Assembly (NCBI RefSeq): GCF_007713685.1
Contig: NZ_VMRJ01000007.1
Location: 124,001 to 188,000 of the forward strand
Origin: Hymenobacter setariae
GTDB taxonomy: Bacteria > Bacteroidota > Bacteroidia > Cytophagales > Hymenobacteraceae
Length of the DNA: 64,000 bases
Direction of reading: 5' to 3'
Positions 16,411-22,385 of the stretch are shown piece by piece. A program made the position numbers and the translations under genes. The notes below the pieces were generated by a model, which was given only the letters and a program-made list of their open reading frames with translations, did not search any database and was not told the DNA's origin. Position 1 is the stretch's first letter, and every line of letters begins with the position of its first letter.

Positions 16411-16458
16411 AGGGGGGGCTAGGTAGTGAAAAAACAGTTTCACTACCTAGCCCCCCTT
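16411..16458 (-). terminator. Terminator of the Phe/Tyr operon
   Basis: Stem of about 20 bp (GGGGGGCTAGGTAGTGAAA with its complement, arms 16412-16431 and 16438-16457, loop AAAACAG) bordered by A and T runs. It lies just beyond the stop of the DAHP synthase gene on the minus strand. Confidence 0.85.
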
Positions 16459-16479: not shown

Positions 16480-17550
16480 CTAGCTATTCATCACTTTCTC
16501 TTGGCGCAGCACCGACTCTAGGTGAACTGCTTCCATGTAGCGCTCCACGAATTCTTCGGTCAGGCCCACTTGTGCGCCTTGGCGCTTGCTGCGCTCTAAA
16601 ATCTCGTTGAGGCGGGCGGTTTGCAGGATGGTAATGTCGTTGTCCTTCTTGTATTGGCCGATTTTTTCGGCTACGGCCATACGGCGGCCCAACAGCTGCA
16701 TTACCTCGGCGTCGAGGTTGTTGATTTGCTCGCGCAGGCCGGCTAGGGCGTTCACAAACTCGGCCTTATCGGTGGTTTCGTGGCGCCACACGAGGTCGGT
16801 GATGAGCTGCTTCAGCACCTCGGGCGTGATTTGCTGCTTGGCATCGCTCCACGCGTTATCGGGGTCGATGTGGCTCTCAATCATGGTACCGTCGAAGTCG
16901 AGGTCCAGCGCCTGCTGGGCCACGGCGAACAGCGTATCGCGGCGACCGCAGATGTGGCTCGGGTCGTTGAGGATGGGCATGTCGGGCATGCGGCGCTTCA
17001 TCTCAATGGGCAGGTGCCACATGGGGGCATTGCGGTAGTCGGTGTTGCCATAGCTCGAAAAGCCGCGGTGCACCATGCCAACCTGCTTCAGACCAACCTT
17101 TTGCAGACGCTCGATAGCACCCACCCACAGCTCTAGCTCGGGGTGAATAGGGTTCTTCACCAGCACCGGAATATCCACACCGCGCAGCGCGTTGGCGATT
17201 TCCTGCACCGAAAACGGGTTGCCGGTGGTGCGGGCGCCCACCCACACGAGGTCCACACCGAAGGCGAGGCAGTCCTCTACGTGCTTGGCGGTAGCCACTT
17301 CCACGGCCACGGGCAGGCCGGTGAGTTCGCTGGCTTTCTTGAGCCAGGGTAGGCCCTTGGCCCCTACCCCTTCAAATCCGCCGGGCTTGGTGCGGGGCTT
17401 CCAGATGCCAGCGCGCAGGGCTTGCACTTTGCCGGTGGCGGCGAGGCGCTGGCAGGTTTCGAGTACTTGCTCTTCGGTTTCGGCCGAGCAGGGGCCCGAA
17501 ATGAGGAAGGGCTTGTCTTCGGGCTTGCGATTGAAAAGGTCGTTGAACAT
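16480..17550 (-). CDS. Bifunctional DAHP synthase / chorismate mutase (type II)
   Basis: 356 residues in two parts. Residues about 10-255 are a class I DAHP synthase of the AroA-beta/KdsA-like subfamily (FLISGPCSAE, AGIWKPRTKPGGFEG, DPSHICGRRD, and DGTMIESHIDPDNAWSD), which joins PEP and erythrose 4-phosphate. Residues about 265-350 are an AroQ-type chorismate mutase (LREQINNLDAEVMQLLGRRMAVAEKIGQYK), which makes prephenate. The fusion is common in Bacteroidota. It is the last gene of the minus-strand operon and is followed by a strong terminator. Fusion of the first and the branch-point enzymes fits end-product control of the Phe/Tyr branch. Confidence 0.95.
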   Translation of the reverse strand: MFNDLFNRKPEDKPFLISGPCSAETEEQVLETCQRLAATGKVQALRAGIWKPRTKPGGFEGVGAKGLPWLKKASELTGLPVAVEVATAKHVEDCLAFGVDLVWVGARTTGNPFSVQEIANALRGVDIPVLVKNPIHPELELWVGAIERLQKVGLKQVGMVHRGFSSYGNTDYRNAPMWHLPIEMKRRMPDMPILNDPSHICGRRDTLFAVAQQALDLDFDGTMIESHIDPDNAWSDAKQQITPEVLKQLITDLVWRHETTDKAEFVNALAGLREQINNLDAEVMQLLGRRMAVAEKIGQYKKDNDITILQTARLNEILERSKRQGAQVGLTEEFVERYMEAVHLESVLRQEKVMNS

Positions 17551-17658: not shown

Positions 17659-18507
17659 TCAGGGAATAATCTTGCGAATGGCGTTGGCGTGCTCTAGCTC
17701 GGTGGTCAGCGCGGCGTAATCTTCCTGTACTAGTAATTCGCGCAGCTTCTGCAACTGGTGCAAATGCTCGTCGAGCACGTCGAGCACGTTTTCACGGTTT
17801 TGGCGGAAGATGGGTACCCAAGTGGCCGGCGCGCTCTTGGCTAGCCGCACCGTGGAGGCAAAGCCCCCACCAGCTAGGTCAAAAATGCGCTGCTCGCCGC
17901 GCTGCTCTTTCTCCAATACCGTGAGTGCCAAGGCAAACGACGTGAGGTGCGAAATGTGCGACACGTAGGCCGTATGCAAGTCGTGGTCGGCGGCGCCTAG
18001 GTGCAGCACCCGCATGGGCAAGGCCTGAAACAGCGCTTCGACCATAGCCACAGCGGCGGGGTTGCTGGCTTCGGCATCGCATACTACCAGCGTCTTGCCT
18101 TCGAACAAGCCGCGCACGGCCGCATCGGGACCTGAGTACTCGGTGCCGGCCATGGGGTGCACCGCCACAAAGCGGCTCCGGCGCGAGTGGTCTGCCACGG
18201 CCGCCAGTAGGTTGCCTTTGGTCGAGCCCACGTCGATAACGGTTTGCTGGTCGGTCACGAGGTCGAGCACCTGGGGCAGCACCGCGAGCATGGCATCCAT
18301 GGGCACGGCCACGATGATGAGGCTAGCCGGCGCCACGGCCGTCCCTAGGTCGGTCTCAATTTCATCGACCAAGCCTAGCTCTAGAGCCCGGCGGGCGTAG
18401 GGAGCATGGTTTTCTACCCCAATAAGCCGGTCGGCCAGGCCGTGCTGCCGCAGGCTAAGCGCCAGCGAGCCGCCGATAAGACCTAGGCCGATGATGGTGA
18501 TAGTCAT
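17659..18507 (-). CDS. tyrA: Prephenate dehydrogenase
   Basis: 282 residues. The NAD-binding start MTITIIGLGLIGGSLALSLR, the DVGSTKG block and HPMAGTEYSGPDAA are hallmarks of TyrA, which oxidises and decarboxylates prephenate to 4-hydroxyphenylpyruvate. No ACT or chorismate mutase domain is attached. It is followed after 151 bases by the DAHP synthase-mutase and preceded by the aminotransferase, so prephenate supply, its oxidation and the final transamination are coded together. Confidence 0.93.
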   Translation of the reverse strand: MTITIIGLGLIGGSLALSLRQHGLADRLIGVENHAPYARRALELGLVDEIETDLGTAVAPASLIIVAVPMDAMLAVLPQVLDLVTDQQTVIDVGSTKGNLLAAVADHSRRSRFVAVHPMAGTEYSGPDAAVRGLFEGKTLVVCDAEASNPAAVAMVEALFQALPMRVLHLGAADHDLHTAYVSHISHLTSFALALTVLEKEQRGEQRIFDLAGGGFASTVRLAKSAPATWVPIFRQNRENVLDVLDEHLHQLQKLRELLVQEDYAALTTELEHANAIRKIIP

Positions 18508-18530: not shown

Positions 18531-18628
18531 TGTCATACAGCGCGCAGCAAAACAGCTTGTGTGCTGACGTTCAGAGGCATTTTTAATTACTACGCCACGC
18601 GAGATGCTTCGCTACGTGCTGCATGATT
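18531..18628. repeat. Palindromic intergenic repeat, copy B, overlapping a gene end
   Basis: The right arm ACGCGAGATGCTTCGCTACGTGCTGCATGA (18597-18626) is nearly the same as that of copy A. The left arm (TGTCATACAGCGCGCAGC from 18531) is more diverged. The right arm lies inside the aminotransferase gene and supplies its last codons and stop. Confidence 0.7.
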
Positions 18629-19798
18629 AGTGGATTGCATATCAGCTTTCACCCGCTCCAGCGCCTCGCGCAGCACGCTCTCGGGCTGGCAAAGACTGGC
18701 CCGGATGTAGCCCGCACCATTGCTGCCGAAGATGCCGCCGGGCGTGAGAAACACACGCGCCTCGGCCAGCACGGCGTCGCTGAGAGCGTAGCCATCGGCA
18801 TAACCCGGTGGCACGGCCGCCCAAATGAATAGGCCTACCTGGCCAGGCGCTGGCGCGCAACCTAGGGCCTGCAACAGTTCCACTACCAGTTCACGGCGGG
18901 CGCGGTAGGTAGCGTTTAACTCCGCAAACCACTCGTCGCCGAGACCCAGAGCCGCCACGGCCGCTTGCTGAATAGCTAGGAACATGCCCGAATCCATGTT
19001 GCTTTTGAAGCGCAATACCTCAGTCAGCCAGTCGGCGCGTCCTACCAGCATGCCCACGCGCCAGCCGGCCAGGTTATGGCTTTTGCTGAGTGAGTTCAGC
19101 TCTAGAGCTACCTCCTTAGCGCCTGGTATGCTGAGCAGGCTCGTGGGCGGCGTTTCATTCAGCACGAAGCCGTACGGGTTATCGTGCACCAGCATGATGC
19201 TATGCGCGGCCGCAAACTCAACCAGCTGTTGCAGAAACTCGGGGCTGGCCGCCGTGCCGGTGGGCATGTGCGGATAGTTGACCAGCATCATCTTCACGCG
19301 GCTTAGGTCGCTCTTAGCCAGCGCGTCTAGGTCGGGCAGCCAACCAGTATCGGCCGTTAGGTCGTACTCGCGCACCTCGGCCCCGCAGATTTCGGCCACC
19401 GCCCGGTAGGTCGGGTAGCCGGGGTTAGGAATAAGCACTGCGTCGCCGGCTTCTAGAAAGGCCATACCAATGTGCATCAGGCCTTCTTTGGAGCCAGCCA
19501 GGGGCAGCACTTCGGTAGCGGGGTCGAGGGCCACGCCATAGCTTTTTTGGTAGAACGCGGCCATGGCTTGGCGCAGGGCCGGCGTGCCTTGGTAGCTCTG
19601 GTAGCCGTGGGCATTGGGCTGGGCCGCGGTGGCACCTAGGGCCGCCACCACACCGGGGTGCGGCGGCAAATCGGGGCTGCCGATACCTAGGCTGATGATA
19701 TTGACGCCGGCGGCATTAAGGGCGGCTATCTCGCGCAGCTTACGCGAGAAATAGTATTCGCCGGTATTAGCCAAGCGGCTAGCGGTGGTGACTTGCAT
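18590..19798 (-). CDS. Class I/II PLP aminotransferase (aromatic amino acid type by context)
   Basis: 402 residues, fold type I. Landmarks are SLGIGSPDLPPHPGVV, HGYQSYQGTPALRQA, NPGYPTYRAVAEICGAEV, the Asp in HDNPYG, and the PLP lysine in SLSKSHNLAGWRVGM. It lies between pheA and tyrA, so it most likely converts phenylpyruvate and 4-hydroxyphenylpyruvate to Phe and Tyr; an aspartate or LL-DAP-like role is the alternative. The final residues NHAARSEASRVA are coded by a palindromic repeat (copy B) that has invaded the 3' end, so this tail is probably not part of the ancestral protein. Confidence 0.88.
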   Translation of the reverse strand: MQVTTASRLANTGEYYFSRKLREIAALNAAGVNIISLGIGSPDLPPHPGVVAALGATAAQPNAHGYQSYQGTPALRQAMAAFYQKSYGVALDPATEVLPLAGSKEGLMHIGMAFLEAGDAVLIPNPGYPTYRAVAEICGAEVREYDLTADTGWLPDLDALAKSDLSRVKMMLVNYPHMPTGTAASPEFLQQLVEFAAAHSIMLVHDNPYGFVLNETPPTSLLSIPGAKEVALELNSLSKSHNLAGWRVGMLVGRADWLTEVLRFKSNMDSGMFLAIQQAAVAALGLGDEWFAELNATYRARRELVVELLQALGCAPAPGQVGLFIWAAVPPGYADGYALSDAVLAEARVFLTPGGIFGSNGAGYIRASLCQPESVLREALERVKADMQSTNHAARSEASRVA

Positions 19799-19870: not shown

Positions 19871-20371
19871 TTAACCATGCAAAAGTGATTCTACAATTTT
19901 CTGCACTTGCATCAGGGTGACACCATTGCGCTGGTCGAGTGTTAGAGGATGGTTTTCCTCGAAAACCTCTACTTGTGGTATAGTGCCTACTGGCTGGGTG
20001 TGCACCCAAGTCTTACAATTGACAGTGTTCTCATAGCTAGGAATTTCAGTTTGTAACCAGCCAAAATATGGCTTCTCCTGCACGCGTAGAGGGTCATTCC
20101 ACAATTCCTGAGACCGCATAAAACTCTCTTCACTAAGCGAGGTCCACACGTTCCAGACAAAATTCTCAGGGTAGTCGATTATTGGAATCTCAATTCTCCC
20201 GCGGATAAAGAAGTGCTCTTCGTCGACTACGCACCAGTCCGTTGACATTTCAACACGCGCTTCTCGTTCTTCCGCAGGAACACTGTAGTAATACAGAGGA
20301 ACTTCGGCGCCGAAGCACAACGGCAATTCTTCATGATATTGACCGCAGGTTGCACACGTAAAACCAGGCAT
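19871..20371 (-). CDS. DUF2199 domain protein inside the Phe/Tyr operon
   Basis: 166 residues from the ATG at 20371, four bases after the pheA stop; a longer reading would overlap pheA in another frame and is rejected. The start MPGFTCATCGQYHEELPLCFG has a CxxC pair, and the run STDWCVVDEEHFFIRGRIEIPI is typical of DUF2199. The family has no known function. The four-base gap says it is translated with pheA, but whether it matters for aromatic synthesis is unknown. Its base composition is more AT-rich than its neighbours, so it may be a later insertion. Confidence 0.85.
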   Translation of the reverse strand: MPGFTCATCGQYHEELPLCFGAEVPLYYYSVPAEEREARVEMSTDWCVVDEEHFFIRGRIEIPIIDYPENFVWNVWTSLSEESFMRSQELWNDPLRVQEKPYFGWLQTEIPSYENTVNCKTWVHTQPVGTIPQVEVFEENHPLTLDQRNGVTLMQVQKIVESLLHG

Positions 20372-20375
20372 CGTC

Positions 20376-21278
20376 TTATACTGCGAGTGATAATGAATTA
20401 TTCTCTTCGGTTTTGATGACCTGACTTTCTGGCTCCACTTCCTGCCCAAACTCCATGCTGCCACGCTGGTAGGCGCCTAGCACACGCAGCTCTTCTGTCA
20501 CGGTGGGTAGCTCAGCCAACAGTGCTTCTAGCTGGGCGGCAGTGGAGAACTCTACATCGGCGTGGAAGCCATAGTGCCAGGGCTGGCTGGGGCGCGGGCA
20601 CGACTGCAACTTACTCAGGTTCAAACCGTGGCTCGCTACCAGCGTGAGCACCTTGGCCAACATGCCCGGCGCGTGCGAGGTGTAGAAATAAAGCGATGCT
20701 TTGTCGGGCTGCGCCACGGGCGTGGCCTCGGCAGCGCGCTCTAGCACCAAGAAGCGGGTGTAGTTATTAGGGTCGTCGTTGATGGCGGGCGCCAGGATTT
20801 CCAGCCCGAAAGCTTCGGCAGCTTGGCCGCCAGCTATCACGGCTAGGCCGGGCGTGCGGCTTTCGGCCAGGCGTTGGGCGCTGAGGCCGGTATCCTCGGT
20901 TTCGACAAGTTGCCACGCGGGGTATTGCCCTAGGTAGTCGCCACACTGGCGCAAAGCCATGGGGTGCGAGTGCACGGCCTGCACGTCGGCGAGCGTGGTG
21001 CCAGGCAGCACCAAAAGGTGCTGATGGATGGGCAGATATACCTCGCCTGTAATGGTGAGGTCGGCCCGTTCTAGTAGCAGATAATTAGCTAAGATGCTGC
21101 CAGCCACCGAGTTTTCCATGGCCATCACGGCGGCATCGGCGCGGCCATCGGCCACTTGGGCTACTACCTCACCGAAGGTGGCGCAGAAGTTCAGGGCGGG
21201 CGCCGCGCCGAAATACTGGCGGGCGGCTACTTCGTGGAAACTCCCTTTGAACCCCTGAATGGCAACGTGCTGTGGCAT
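20376..21278 (-). CDS. pheA: Prephenate dehydratase with ACT domain
   Basis: 300 residues; converts prephenate to phenylpyruvate. The catalytic part (about 1-180) starts AIQGFKGSFHEVAARQYF and has AVMAMENSVAGSI and the NYTRFLVLER block with the conserved Thr-Arg-Phe. The ACT part (about 195-275) holds GMLAKVLTLVASHGLNLSKLQSCP, where the ESRP motif of better-known PheA proteins is replaced by QSCP; Bacteroidota versions commonly differ there. It is the first structural gene behind the Phe-rich leader and attenuator, so enzyme activity (ACT) and expression (attenuation) would both answer to Phe. Confidence 0.95.
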   Translation of the reverse strand: MPQHVAIQGFKGSFHEVAARQYFGAAPALNFCATFGEVVAQVADGRADAAVMAMENSVAGSILANYLLLERADLTITGEVYLPIHQHLLVLPGTTLADVQAVHSHPMALRQCGDYLGQYPAWQLVETEDTGLSAQRLAESRTPGLAVIAGGQAAEAFGLEILAPAINDDPNNYTRFLVLERAAEATPVAQPDKASLYFYTSHAPGMLAKVLTLVASHGLNLSKLQSCPRPSQPWHYGFHADVEFSTAAQLEALLAELPTVTEELRVLGAYQRGSMEFGQEVEPESQVIKTEENNSLSLAV

Positions 21279-21331: not shown

Positions 21332-21364
21332 AAAAAAAGCGCCACCCGAAGAACGAGTGGCGCT
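21332..21364 (-). terminator. Attenuator terminator of the Phe/Tyr operon
   Basis: On the minus strand an 8-bp stem AGCGCCAC/GTGGCGCT (21357-21364 with 21338-21345), extendable by two pairs, is followed at once by a run of U (21332-21338). It lies between the leader peptide and pheA, 54 bases before the pheA start. Confidence 0.88.
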
Positions 21365-21403
21365 GCTAATTTTTTGTGGCTTAGCTACATGGCGACTCGT
21401 TCT
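21350..21403 (-). promoter_or_regulatory. Mutually exclusive antiterminator pairing in the phe leader
   Basis: Minus-strand segment AGAACGAGT (21395-21403, overlapping the leader stop codon) is the exact complement of ACTCGTTCT (21350-21358). Three more pairs (CGC 21392-21394 with GCG 21361-21363) follow after a two-base bulge. This pairing uses the terminator's 5' arm and cannot coexist with it. A ribosome resting at the leader stop would cover the first segment, while one stalled on the Phe codons would leave it free. Confidence 0.8.
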
Positions 21404-21455
21404 ACGCGGGCGGCGTAAAATAAAAGAAGCCAAAAAAATAGCGGTTGCTGAACAT
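21402..21455 (-). CDS. Phe/Tyr-rich leader peptide of the pheA operon
   Basis: The reading is MFSNRYFFGFFYFTPPA followed by TAG: 17 residues with six Phe (positions 2, 7, 8, 10, 11, 13) and two Tyr. Seven of the eight residues from 6 to 13 are aromatic. It begins about 15 bases after the expected transcript start, and its stop lies at the start of an antiterminator segment. Such a peptide in front of prephenate dehydratase is the classical arrangement for Phe attenuation in enteric bacteria, where the ribosome stalls when charged Phe-tRNA is scarce. No Shine-Dalgarno site is seen, as usual in Bacteroidota. The peptide itself probably has no further role. Confidence 0.85.
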   Translation of the reverse strand: MFSNRYFFGFFYFTPPA

Positions 21456-21475
21456 GATATCGGTCGAATTGGGCG

Positions 21476-21506
21476 GCAAGGTAGGCAAGAATTTTAAACT
21501 GACAAA
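21476..21506 (-). promoter_or_regulatory. Promoter of the Phe/Tyr operon
   Basis: Minus strand: TTTG at 21503-21506, 19 bases, then TACCTTGC at 21476-21483. This fits the Bacteroidota -33/-7 pattern (TTTG, 19-21 bases, TAnnTTTG) with one mismatch in the -7 box. The transcript would start near 21469, giving a leader of about 190 bases. Confidence 0.65.
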
Positions 21507-21533: not shown

Positions 21534-22385
21534 TTAGCCGTTCCAACGGCCAAATTTTCCCTGCTGATAGTCAGCGTAGGCCTGTTCGATTTCGGCCTCG
21601 GTGTTCATCACAAAAGGCCCACCCGACACTACGGGCTCGCCAAAGGGTTCGGCATGACCTAGGAGCAATACGCTGTCTGTCAACGCTTCTAAGGCCAACT
21701 CGTCGCCATCGTGGTTGAATTCGACCAGTTCCCGGGCGAAGGCCTCAGTACCGTTGACGCGCACGCTGCCGCGCACCACGTAGAAAAAAATGCTGTGGCT
21801 GGCTGCAATTGGCAGCGTAGCAGTGGCACCTTCGGCCATATCAAGCCAAGCCAGGGCCACATCGGCCAGCGGCTGCACGGCGCCAGCGGTGCCGCCCCAG
21901 GTACCCGACACGGCGTGCGCCGTGACGCCGTCGGCGAGCGCAACTGTCGGTATCTCGTTCTCCTGTAGGCCTAGGTAGCGTGGCTCAGTCATTTTGTACT
22001 TGGCCGGCAGGTTGACCCAAAGCTGCAAAATTTCGAGCGGGCCGCCCGTTCTCTTGAATTCATTGGACGATACTTCGGCGTGGATGAGGCCTGAACCAGC
22101 CGTCATCCACTGAATACCAGCGGCTTTGATGACGCTTTCGTGGCCGCTGCTGTCCTTATGCAGAATGTCGCCCTCCAGGATAAACGTAACCGTTTCGAAG
22201 CCGCGGTGCGGGTGCGGGCCAAAGGGCAGGCCGCGGTTGTTGGCCCGGTACACCTGCGGCCCGTGGTGGTTCAGGAACAGAAACGGGTCGATATACTCAA
22301 CGGACTGCGTGGGGATGGCCCGGTAGGTCGTGAGGTCGGCGATGGGCGCATTTACGGCCCGGTGCTTTTGAATGACAGTGCGCAT
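21534..22385 (-). CDS. Pirin family protein
   Basis: 283 residues, two-domain cupin. The N-terminal metal site is visible as PHPHRGFETVTFILEGDILHKDSSGHE with HAE further on (LIHAEVS), the His/Glu set of pirins. Some pirins are quercetin dioxygenases and others affect transcription or redox metabolism; nothing here decides. It stands upstream of the phe promoter on the same strand and downstream of the GH2-like gene by 32 bases, with which it may be co-transcribed. Confidence 0.92.
   Translation of the reverse strand: MRTVIQKHRAVNAPIADLTTYRAIPTQSVEYIDPFLFLNHHGPQVYRANNRGLPFGPHPHRGFETVTFILEGDILHKDSSGHESVIKAAGIQWMTAGSGLIHAEVSSNEFKRTGGPLEILQLWVNLPAKYKMTEPRYLGLQENEIPTVALADGVTAHAVSGTWGGTAGAVQPLADVALAWLDMAEGATATLPIAASHSIFFYVVRGSVRVNGTEAFARELVEFNHDGDELALEALTDSVLLLGHAEPFGEPVVSGGPFVMNTEAEIEQAYADYQQGKFGRWNG

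Follow-up and report, generated by a model that had tools for sequence, protein, structure and literature searches.

Leader-peptide attenuation is a classical mechanism, and it requires a ribosome close behind RNA polymerase. Apart from ermC, Naville and Gautheret (2010) were aware of no leader peptide system that had been shown outside Proteobacteria and Actinobacteria earlier than their own. Vitreschak and others (2004) and Lopatovskaya and others (2010) reportedly predict leader peptide attenuation in several phyla, and the former are reported to mention some attenuators in Bacteroidetes/Chlorobi. The Rfam family RF01859 (Phe_leader) was built from enteric sequences. In Bacteroidetes, RF01692 (Bacteroid-trp) was catalogued in 2010 as a cis-regulatory motif (PMC2864571). 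This motif precedes trp genes. The mgtCBR leader of Salmonella carries two short ORFs and two attenuators, each with its own signal, ATP or proline (PMC3641672).

We analyzed a window of 64,000 nucleotides from the genome of Hymenobacter setariae (RefSeq assembly GCF_007713685.1, contig NZ_VMRJ01000007.1, positions 124,001 to 188,000). Upstream of its pheA gene lies an element that is very likely a ribosome-mediated transcription attenuator that responds to charged tRNA-Phe and tRNA-Tyr; its stalling and read-through steps rest on inference, with no RNA, ribosome or reporter data. The best Rfam match of the element is RF01859, which it resembles in having a Phe-codon leader peptide and a terminator before pheA. 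The match is on the right strand and runs end to end, but its 36.3 bits fall short of the cut-off of 55 and several pairs of the model are broken. Because of this low score and these broken pairs we claim likeness of function to Phe_leader and not membership. Among 20 related loci, six match RF01859 at E up to 0.1, the best of them (L107) at 44.8 bits. The original prediction had proposed that control of the enteric kind arose or is kept here; with a match that is end to end, below cut-off and broken in its pairs, this remains undecided. RF00513 (Trp_leader) follows the same logic for another amino acid, and one Hymenobacter trpE leader matches it at 31.1 bits, against a cut-off of 41. Neither RF00513 nor RF01692 matched the Phe/Tyr element up to E 10, and the trp loci gave no RF01692 match at E of 0.1 or below. 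In two relatives, sub-threshold matches to suhB/mmgR small RNAs lie over attenuator 1 (L065 738-819, L070 723-799), probably by way of the terminator.

The leaders of Hymenobacteraceae differ from the Escherichia coli pheA attenuator in several respects. They carry about equal numbers of Phe and Tyr codons and are often doubled, the operon adds tyrA, an aminotransferase and a DAHP synthase/chorismate mutase, and both the phylum and the promoter type are different. A search of the open-licence literature found neither a Phe/Tyr attenuator in Bacteroidota nor tandem leaders of one amino-acid operon, which is weak evidence of absence. Within the same literature we did not find dual Phe/Tyr sensing, serial duplication or codon retuning after gene loss in print, and overlap with the predictions of 2004 and 2010 is possible.

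The leader and its operon

The element is read on the minus strand, as are all features of the window given here. Its leader ORF, MFSNRYFFGFFYFTPPA then stop (21402..21455; ATG at 21455, TAG at 21404-21402), has 17 codons, six for Phe and two for Tyr. On its 5' side lie TTTG (21503..21506), the -33-like element of a putative Bacteroidota promoter, and, 19 bases from it, the -7-like element TACCTTGC (21476..21483), a pair which we take to be of the Bacteroidota promoter type. A sigma-70 scan found no promoter at the window leader. The motif TAnnTT[GT][CGT] lies 5' of 52 of 88 first leaders (shuffled mean 7.7, maximum 14) and is absent 5' of the remaining 36; a TTG at similar distance, counted only if the -7-like element was present, occurs in 46 of the 88.

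Segment 2, AGAACGAGT (21395..21403), begins inside the stop codon and forms the 5' half of the antiterminator, as supported by duplex energy and covariation. Its exact complement, segment 3 or ACTCGTTCT (21350..21358), is common to the antiterminator and the terminator. In the folded duplex, 9 pairs are followed, past a 2-base bulge, by 3 more (-16.1 kcal/mol), and the duplex is stronger than 40 of 40 shuffles. A possible apical hairpin within the antiterminator, identified by eye, has GCTAA (21381..21385) as its 5' arm and TTAGC (21365..21369) as its 3' arm, and this region differs among relatives. The intrinsic terminator, AGCGCCACTCG-TTCTT-CGGGTGGCGCT plus a T run (21332..21364), has a stem of 11 pairs, 8 of them G-C, with a loop of 5; it is kept in relatives and ends about 53 bases 5' of pheA. 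No remnant of a second attenuator was seen by eye between this terminator and pheA.

Most of what the original prediction had read at this site held. The leader with its six Phe and two Tyr codons, the segment starting on the stop codon, the exact complement in the 5' half of the terminator, the U run and, by duplex folding, an antiterminator of 9 bp plus 3 after a bulge were all confirmed. The mutual exclusion of antiterminator and terminator was also upheld, by the shared arm, covariation and folding. The promoter-like pair held as sequence, with its promoter type putative. The terminator stem, given as 8 bp, is corrected to 11 pairs.

The first gene of the operon is pheA, encoding prephenate dehydratase (20376..21278; PF00800 at 7.8e-54, ACT match sub-threshold). 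It is followed by a DUF2199 gene of uncertain start codon (19871..20404; PF09965 at 3.7e-51), a class I/II aminotransferase (18590..19798; PF00155 at 1.2e-60), the prephenate dehydrogenase gene tyrA (17659..18507; PF02153 and PF20463) and a DAHP synthase fused to chorismate mutase (16480..17550; PF00793 and PF01817). A 19-pair terminator-like hairpin lies 3' of this last gene (16413..16456). From its gene content, the pheA-aminotransferase-tyrA-DAHP synthase/chorismate mutase operon makes Phe and Tyr. The nearest named aminotransferase is that of Hymenobacter sp. BT559, at 96% identity.

The effect of ribosome position was modeled by blocking a 28-base ribosome footprint and folding the RNA, at full length unless stated. 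Without a ribosome, the window RNA had a terminator probability of 0.80 and an antiterminator probability of 0.14. With the ribosome on any codon from 6 to 13, the antiterminator reached 0.75-0.76 and the terminator fell to 0.00, and the terminator returned to 0.99 with the ribosome at the stop codon and to 0.65 with the ribosome at codon 2. Codons 6-13, Tyr Phe Phe Gly Phe Phe Tyr Phe (21417..21440), are taken as the control region because stalls there abolish the terminator in folding. In five other units (the first of L015, the second of L024, both of L103, and L107), the terminator is favored at equilibrium at most or all stalled positions, and the switch in those units would therefore have to be kinetic. 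When only the 5' arm was out, the antiterminator had a probability of 0.58-0.99 in stalled L015, L024 and L103, which dropped to 0.00-0.22 once the ribosome stood at the stop codon. For L107, from another genus, the antiterminator that we inferred is weak at this early stage too and does not exceed 0.59.

In the mechanism that we propose, RNA polymerase would initiate just 5' of the leader and a ribosome behind it would translate MFSNRYFFGFFYFTPPA. With charged tRNA-Phe and tRNA-Tyr in ample supply, the ribosome would reach the stop codon and cover AGAACGAGT, the terminator would fold, and transcription would stop before pheA. Should either tRNA be uncharged, the ribosome would halt within the control codons, AGAACGAGT would pair with ACTCGTTCT, no terminator would form, and the whole operon would be transcribed. 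Control by stalling on Phe codons, antitermination and read-through, as originally proposed, is supported by the sequence and the folding model. That the leader is translated, that the ribosome stalls and that transcription terminates or reads through are all inferences, with no expression data.

Conservation of the element and evolution of its stems

The comparison covered 113 loci, namely the window, 32 named loci and 80 further upstream regions from the family. A search with PheA gave 34 named loci, 32 of them with an upstream part; L028 and L033 were left out, with the 5' end of pheA missing. The 80 further regions came from 169 family genomes with PheA and were restricted to at most 66% identity, because closer ones overlap the named loci. 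Every one of the 113 regions 5' of pheA holds one or more Phe/Tyr-rich leaders with a terminator-like hairpin behind. As background, 374,560 strand-bases around the operon in the 32 named relatives held one ORF of the leader kind, located in L031. The scan upstream of pheA was slightly more lenient (hairpin score 7 vs 10 in the background), and only there were GTG/TTG starts allowed, where an ATG leader was absent.

When the own genome was searched with a model of the element, there was one strong match, at the window site (135.6 bits), and no strong second copy, the next-best match reaching 24.5 bits. A covariance model matched 108 of 120 Hymenobacter genomes at E <= 1e-4; these E-values are rough, and the position of the match relative to pheA was unchecked in individual genomes. 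Among the 12 unmatched genomes, three (G012, G027, G066) have PheA and a divergent leader (L172, L086, L180), and nine have no PF00800 match and a closest aminotransferase of only 28-31% identity to that of the operon. These nine operon-less genomes, two of which are merely 81% complete, gave model matches that were weak (best E 0.002) or absent. On the strength of the 108 plus three genomes against these nine, the element occurs with the operon and was not found without it. In other families of the order, a leader with terminator was found in just 5 of 20 stand-alone pheA upstreams, each as a single unit (L125, L126, L129, L132, L140; L135 is doubtful), and in 0 of 20 upstreams of fused chorismate mutase-dehydratase genes; these 40 upstreams were sampled from 147 genomes with a match.

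Pairs were counted in alignments A1 (33 sequences), A2 (20) and A3 (63 sequences, 60 distinct, being 63 of the 88 first units from three antiterminator groups), and were not counted in A4 (54 of the 70 second units). In A1, 97.3% of antiterminator cells are standard-paired, compared with 34-40% when slid. One antiterminator pair is C-G in 19 sequences and U-A in 13, and the covariation score was matched by 0 of 500 shuffles. Two antiterminator pairs are changed on both sides, which 45 of 500 shuffles equal. Outside the group of the window, segment 2 reads GTCGAG, GTCGGG, GCAGCGAGG or GAACCGAGG, with the terminator arm altered to match. When mean duplex energies were compared five by five, the own combination was best in every row and column. 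These five sequence solutions, one of them a group with a single member, accommodate 80 of the 88 first units; eight lie outside all five, and by eye six of the eight are of the GTCGAG type before a later stop codon.

The base common to both stems separates the two structures. Among 60 distinct rows, 20 pair it in a non-standard way within the terminator (17 of these, by eye, from the window's group), and its antiterminator pair is kept in 32 of the 33 A1 sequences. The shared base thus tracks the antiterminator, and the antiterminator helix is therefore not a by-product of the terminator. That the two structures are exclusive is shown by sequence comparison. The original prediction had set an alignment with relatives as the test that could refute it; the Phe/Tyr codons and both stems proved conserved, with compensatory changes, and the test was passed.

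Across all 189 units of both kinds, the own duplex was stronger than all 40 shuffles in 77 and stronger than the mean of 40 cross duplexes in 154; the count is depressed, since automatic segment choice truncated the likely pairing part in several second units (e.g. L112). Covariation in the second attenuator is weak, with one pair changed on both sides, and shuffles scored as high in 16-19 of 500 on three measures and in 332 and 500 on the other two. In both units the median spacing between the last Phe/Tyr codon and the antiterminator is 14 bases; since the pairing search started 12 bases past the first base of the codon, this value is in part a product of the method and is not used as evidence.

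An alternative is that the hairpin is the terminator of the upstream pirin gene (21534-22385) beside an incidental short ORF, with no regulation involved. In its favor, the hairpin stands 3' of the pirin gene on the same strand. Against it, leader and terminator accompany pheA in every locus though the upstream content of the named loci differs (by eye), they remain before the aminotransferase where pheA is gone, and the antiterminator co-evolves. This alternative is all but excluded. An upstream-gene terminator and chance were both rejected, on conservation and on the background scan.

Two further features were observed in the aligned leaders. The sequence GTAG 3' of segment 2 (window 21388-21384) is invariant in the 63 aligned first units and the C after it nearly so; only the last bases of this GTAG(C) motif overlap the possible apical hairpin. 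In seven loci (L068, L069, L071, L072, L073, L087 and L202), leader 1 overruns its usual stop through segment 2 and ends at a later conserved TGTAG, and one attenuator was found in each.

Codon swaps and loss of pheA

Phe and Tyr interchange at most control positions; of 37 leaders, for example, 20 have Tyr at codon 10 and 17 have Phe. Other residues are uncommon at these positions, with exceptions such as codon 14 in 17-residue leaders (Tyr 19, Thr 13, Cys 5). One position is Tyr in 42 of 42 leaders of 19 residues, and the mean Phe fraction of first leaders is 0.50 (n = 88). These codons and their evolution are shown by sequence comparison, and from the swaps it follows that the leader probably reads both amino acids.

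Genomes without pheA offer a natural codon-replacement experiment. PF00800 was found in none of 14 Hymenobacter genomes and was found in the own genome and in all 14 control genomes; two of the 14 (G124 and G106) have a weak PheA match (~2e-4). Phe auxotrophy could possibly be common in Hymenobacter. Nine of the 14 lack the operon, and the other five (G053, G067, G077, G031 and G124, loci L198-L202) retain attenuators before aminotransferase-tyrA, with a broken stretch of pheA persisting in L202. Core codons were counted with the first three leader residues excluded. In leader 1 of the five pheA-less loci, core Phe codons number 0, 0, 2, 3 and 4, against 2-5 in 88 pheA-bearing leaders. In leader 2 (n = 4) they number 2, 2, 1 and 0, against 3-9 in 70 pheA-bearing leaders, and core Tyr codons number 4, 5, 4 and 5. 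The two first leaders with no core Phe codon, L198 and L199, also show antiterminator mismatches by eye, and it is possible that their change is partly plain decay. In L200-L202, leader 1 does not depart from the normal range, with 3 and 4 core Phe codons in L201 and L202. In the aminotransferase tree, from which L023 was excluded as too short, L198-L200 lie close together with the pheA-bearing L018 and L030 among them, and L201 and L202 lie elsewhere; because of these positions we count two or three losses of pheA, not five. Loss of Phe codons with retention of Tyr codons in the absence of the Phe enzyme is what a sensor of two amino acids predicts and plain decay does not, a reading that we consider likely on two or three losses. 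The same data, together with the Phe/Tyr interchange, support pathway-linked selection on which codons the leader carries, again with only two or three independent losses. The original claim that control would cover both the Phe and the Tyr branch is thus supported by gene content, Phe/Tyr interchange and Tyr retention after pheA loss.

A narrower explanation is that Phe alone is sensed, as in enteric pheA, and that the Tyr codons are incidental. The window leader has six Phe and merely two Tyr codons, and TTY and TAY are one base apart, so that drift is easy. Against this, first leaders average half Phe and half Tyr, one position is invariably Tyr in the 19-residue leaders, Tyr codons stay and Phe codons are depleted after pheA loss, and tyrA is within the operon. 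We regard sensing of Phe alone as very unlikely.

An RNA that senses a protein or a small molecule (riboswitch, T-box or target of an RNA-binding protein) might instead drive the terminator, with the ORF secondary. Such systems share the anti-termination anatomy seen here. However, nowhere in the window did any Rfam family, T-box included, reach its cut-off, only a short and variable stretch separates the stems, and the conserved part is the codon content, which shifts with the gene content of the pathway; a sensor RNA of this kind is hard to reconcile with these data and is very improbable. The peptide or the short terminated RNA could also act in trans, with attenuation either absent or additional, and there is a precedent in the leader peptide peTrpL, reported to act in trans (PMC7298713). 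The peptide here is variable beyond its Phe/Tyr positions and shows exchanges of Phe for Tyr, and action in trans would leave the exclusive stems unexplained. As the main explanation it has very little to recommend it, and an extra role of this sort is not excluded.

Other amino-acid leaders and tandem attenuators

Attenuator-like leaders also precede other biosynthetic genes. In the own genome, the trpE upstream region (L205, minus strand) contains MSFYATVSQSWWHSTFPEG then stop, followed by a terminator. With 29 genomes matched, a Trp leader plus terminator was found before trpE in 28 of 28 Hymenobacter loci (L205, L238-L264), with adjacent Trp codons as WWW in 22 and WW in 6. Of 18 loci examined at the ilvD region, 14 have a leader rich in Ile, Val and Leu plus a terminator on its 5' side (L209, minus strand, in the own genome; L265-L281); in the own genome a 235-codon ORF separates this leader from ilvD. 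For both trpE and ilvD the evidence consists of leader and terminator only, and antiterminators were not assessed. Before hisG of the own genome (L203, about 1068-1169) lies an ORF whose last codons are five for His and one for Leu, with no T run within 150 bases. Neither L207 nor L208, the homoserine dehydrogenase loci, showed a leader with a T run; L207 stops short of the start of its long gene, so that its negative result carries no weight.

At the Phe/Tyr operon, 76 of the 113 family loci have two attenuators in series by a fold-based scan that allows bulges, and a strict hairpin scan finds two leader-plus-hairpin units in 62 of 113. In L084 only the second leader was detected and it was counted as one; the second ORF of L115 is noise and was not counted. 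Tandem arrangements had gone unseen in the original prediction. Hymenobacter and genus g6 have them, as does part of genus g5. An example of a second leader is MVPTQQVFFTYGYYFFYLKKPARCCQC then stop (L014), which has its own terminator. Between terminator 1 and the second ATG there are 5-30 bases (median 20); this short gap is inferred to leave no room for a promoter, and the second unit would therefore be reached only by read-through of the first. With two switches in series, both must then read through. The mgtCBR leader is similar in that a single leader RNA holds two short ORFs along with two attenuators. In contrast to it, the tandem leaders of this family share their two kinds of codon; each has a terminator of its own, and the operon that they precede is biosynthetic.

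A bolder reading, which we think likely, is that Hymenobacteraceae run a general regulon of ribosome-coupled attenuation for Phe/Tyr, Trp and branched-chain amino acids, in which pheA-tyrA is often doubly guarded, the range of control is multiplied and codons are retuned when a branch is lost. Each leader of a tandem would read through if Phe or Tyr were short, and the need for both to do so would multiply the range. If true, this would mean tight coupling of ribosome and RNA polymerase in the phylum of Hymenobacteraceae. Bacteroidota mostly initiate translation without Shine-Dalgarno pairing, and in Bacillus subtilis transcription and translation are largely uncoupled. Coupling outside Proteobacteria is debated, and a conserved, covarying attenuator in Bacteroidota makes it directly testable, just as the tandem pairs provide a ready test of what is gained from two serial attenuators.

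The window locus itself has one attenuator and no tandem. With its close single-unit kin it forms a well-supported group (12 rows, 100/100) beside tandem species in the aminotransferase tree, which suggests that the second unit was lost, although the tree is unrooted. In four other loci (L018, L020, L026 and L030), insertions resembling inverted repeats (GTTGTCAGTTG...CAACTGACAAC) were seen by eye between the second terminator and pheA.
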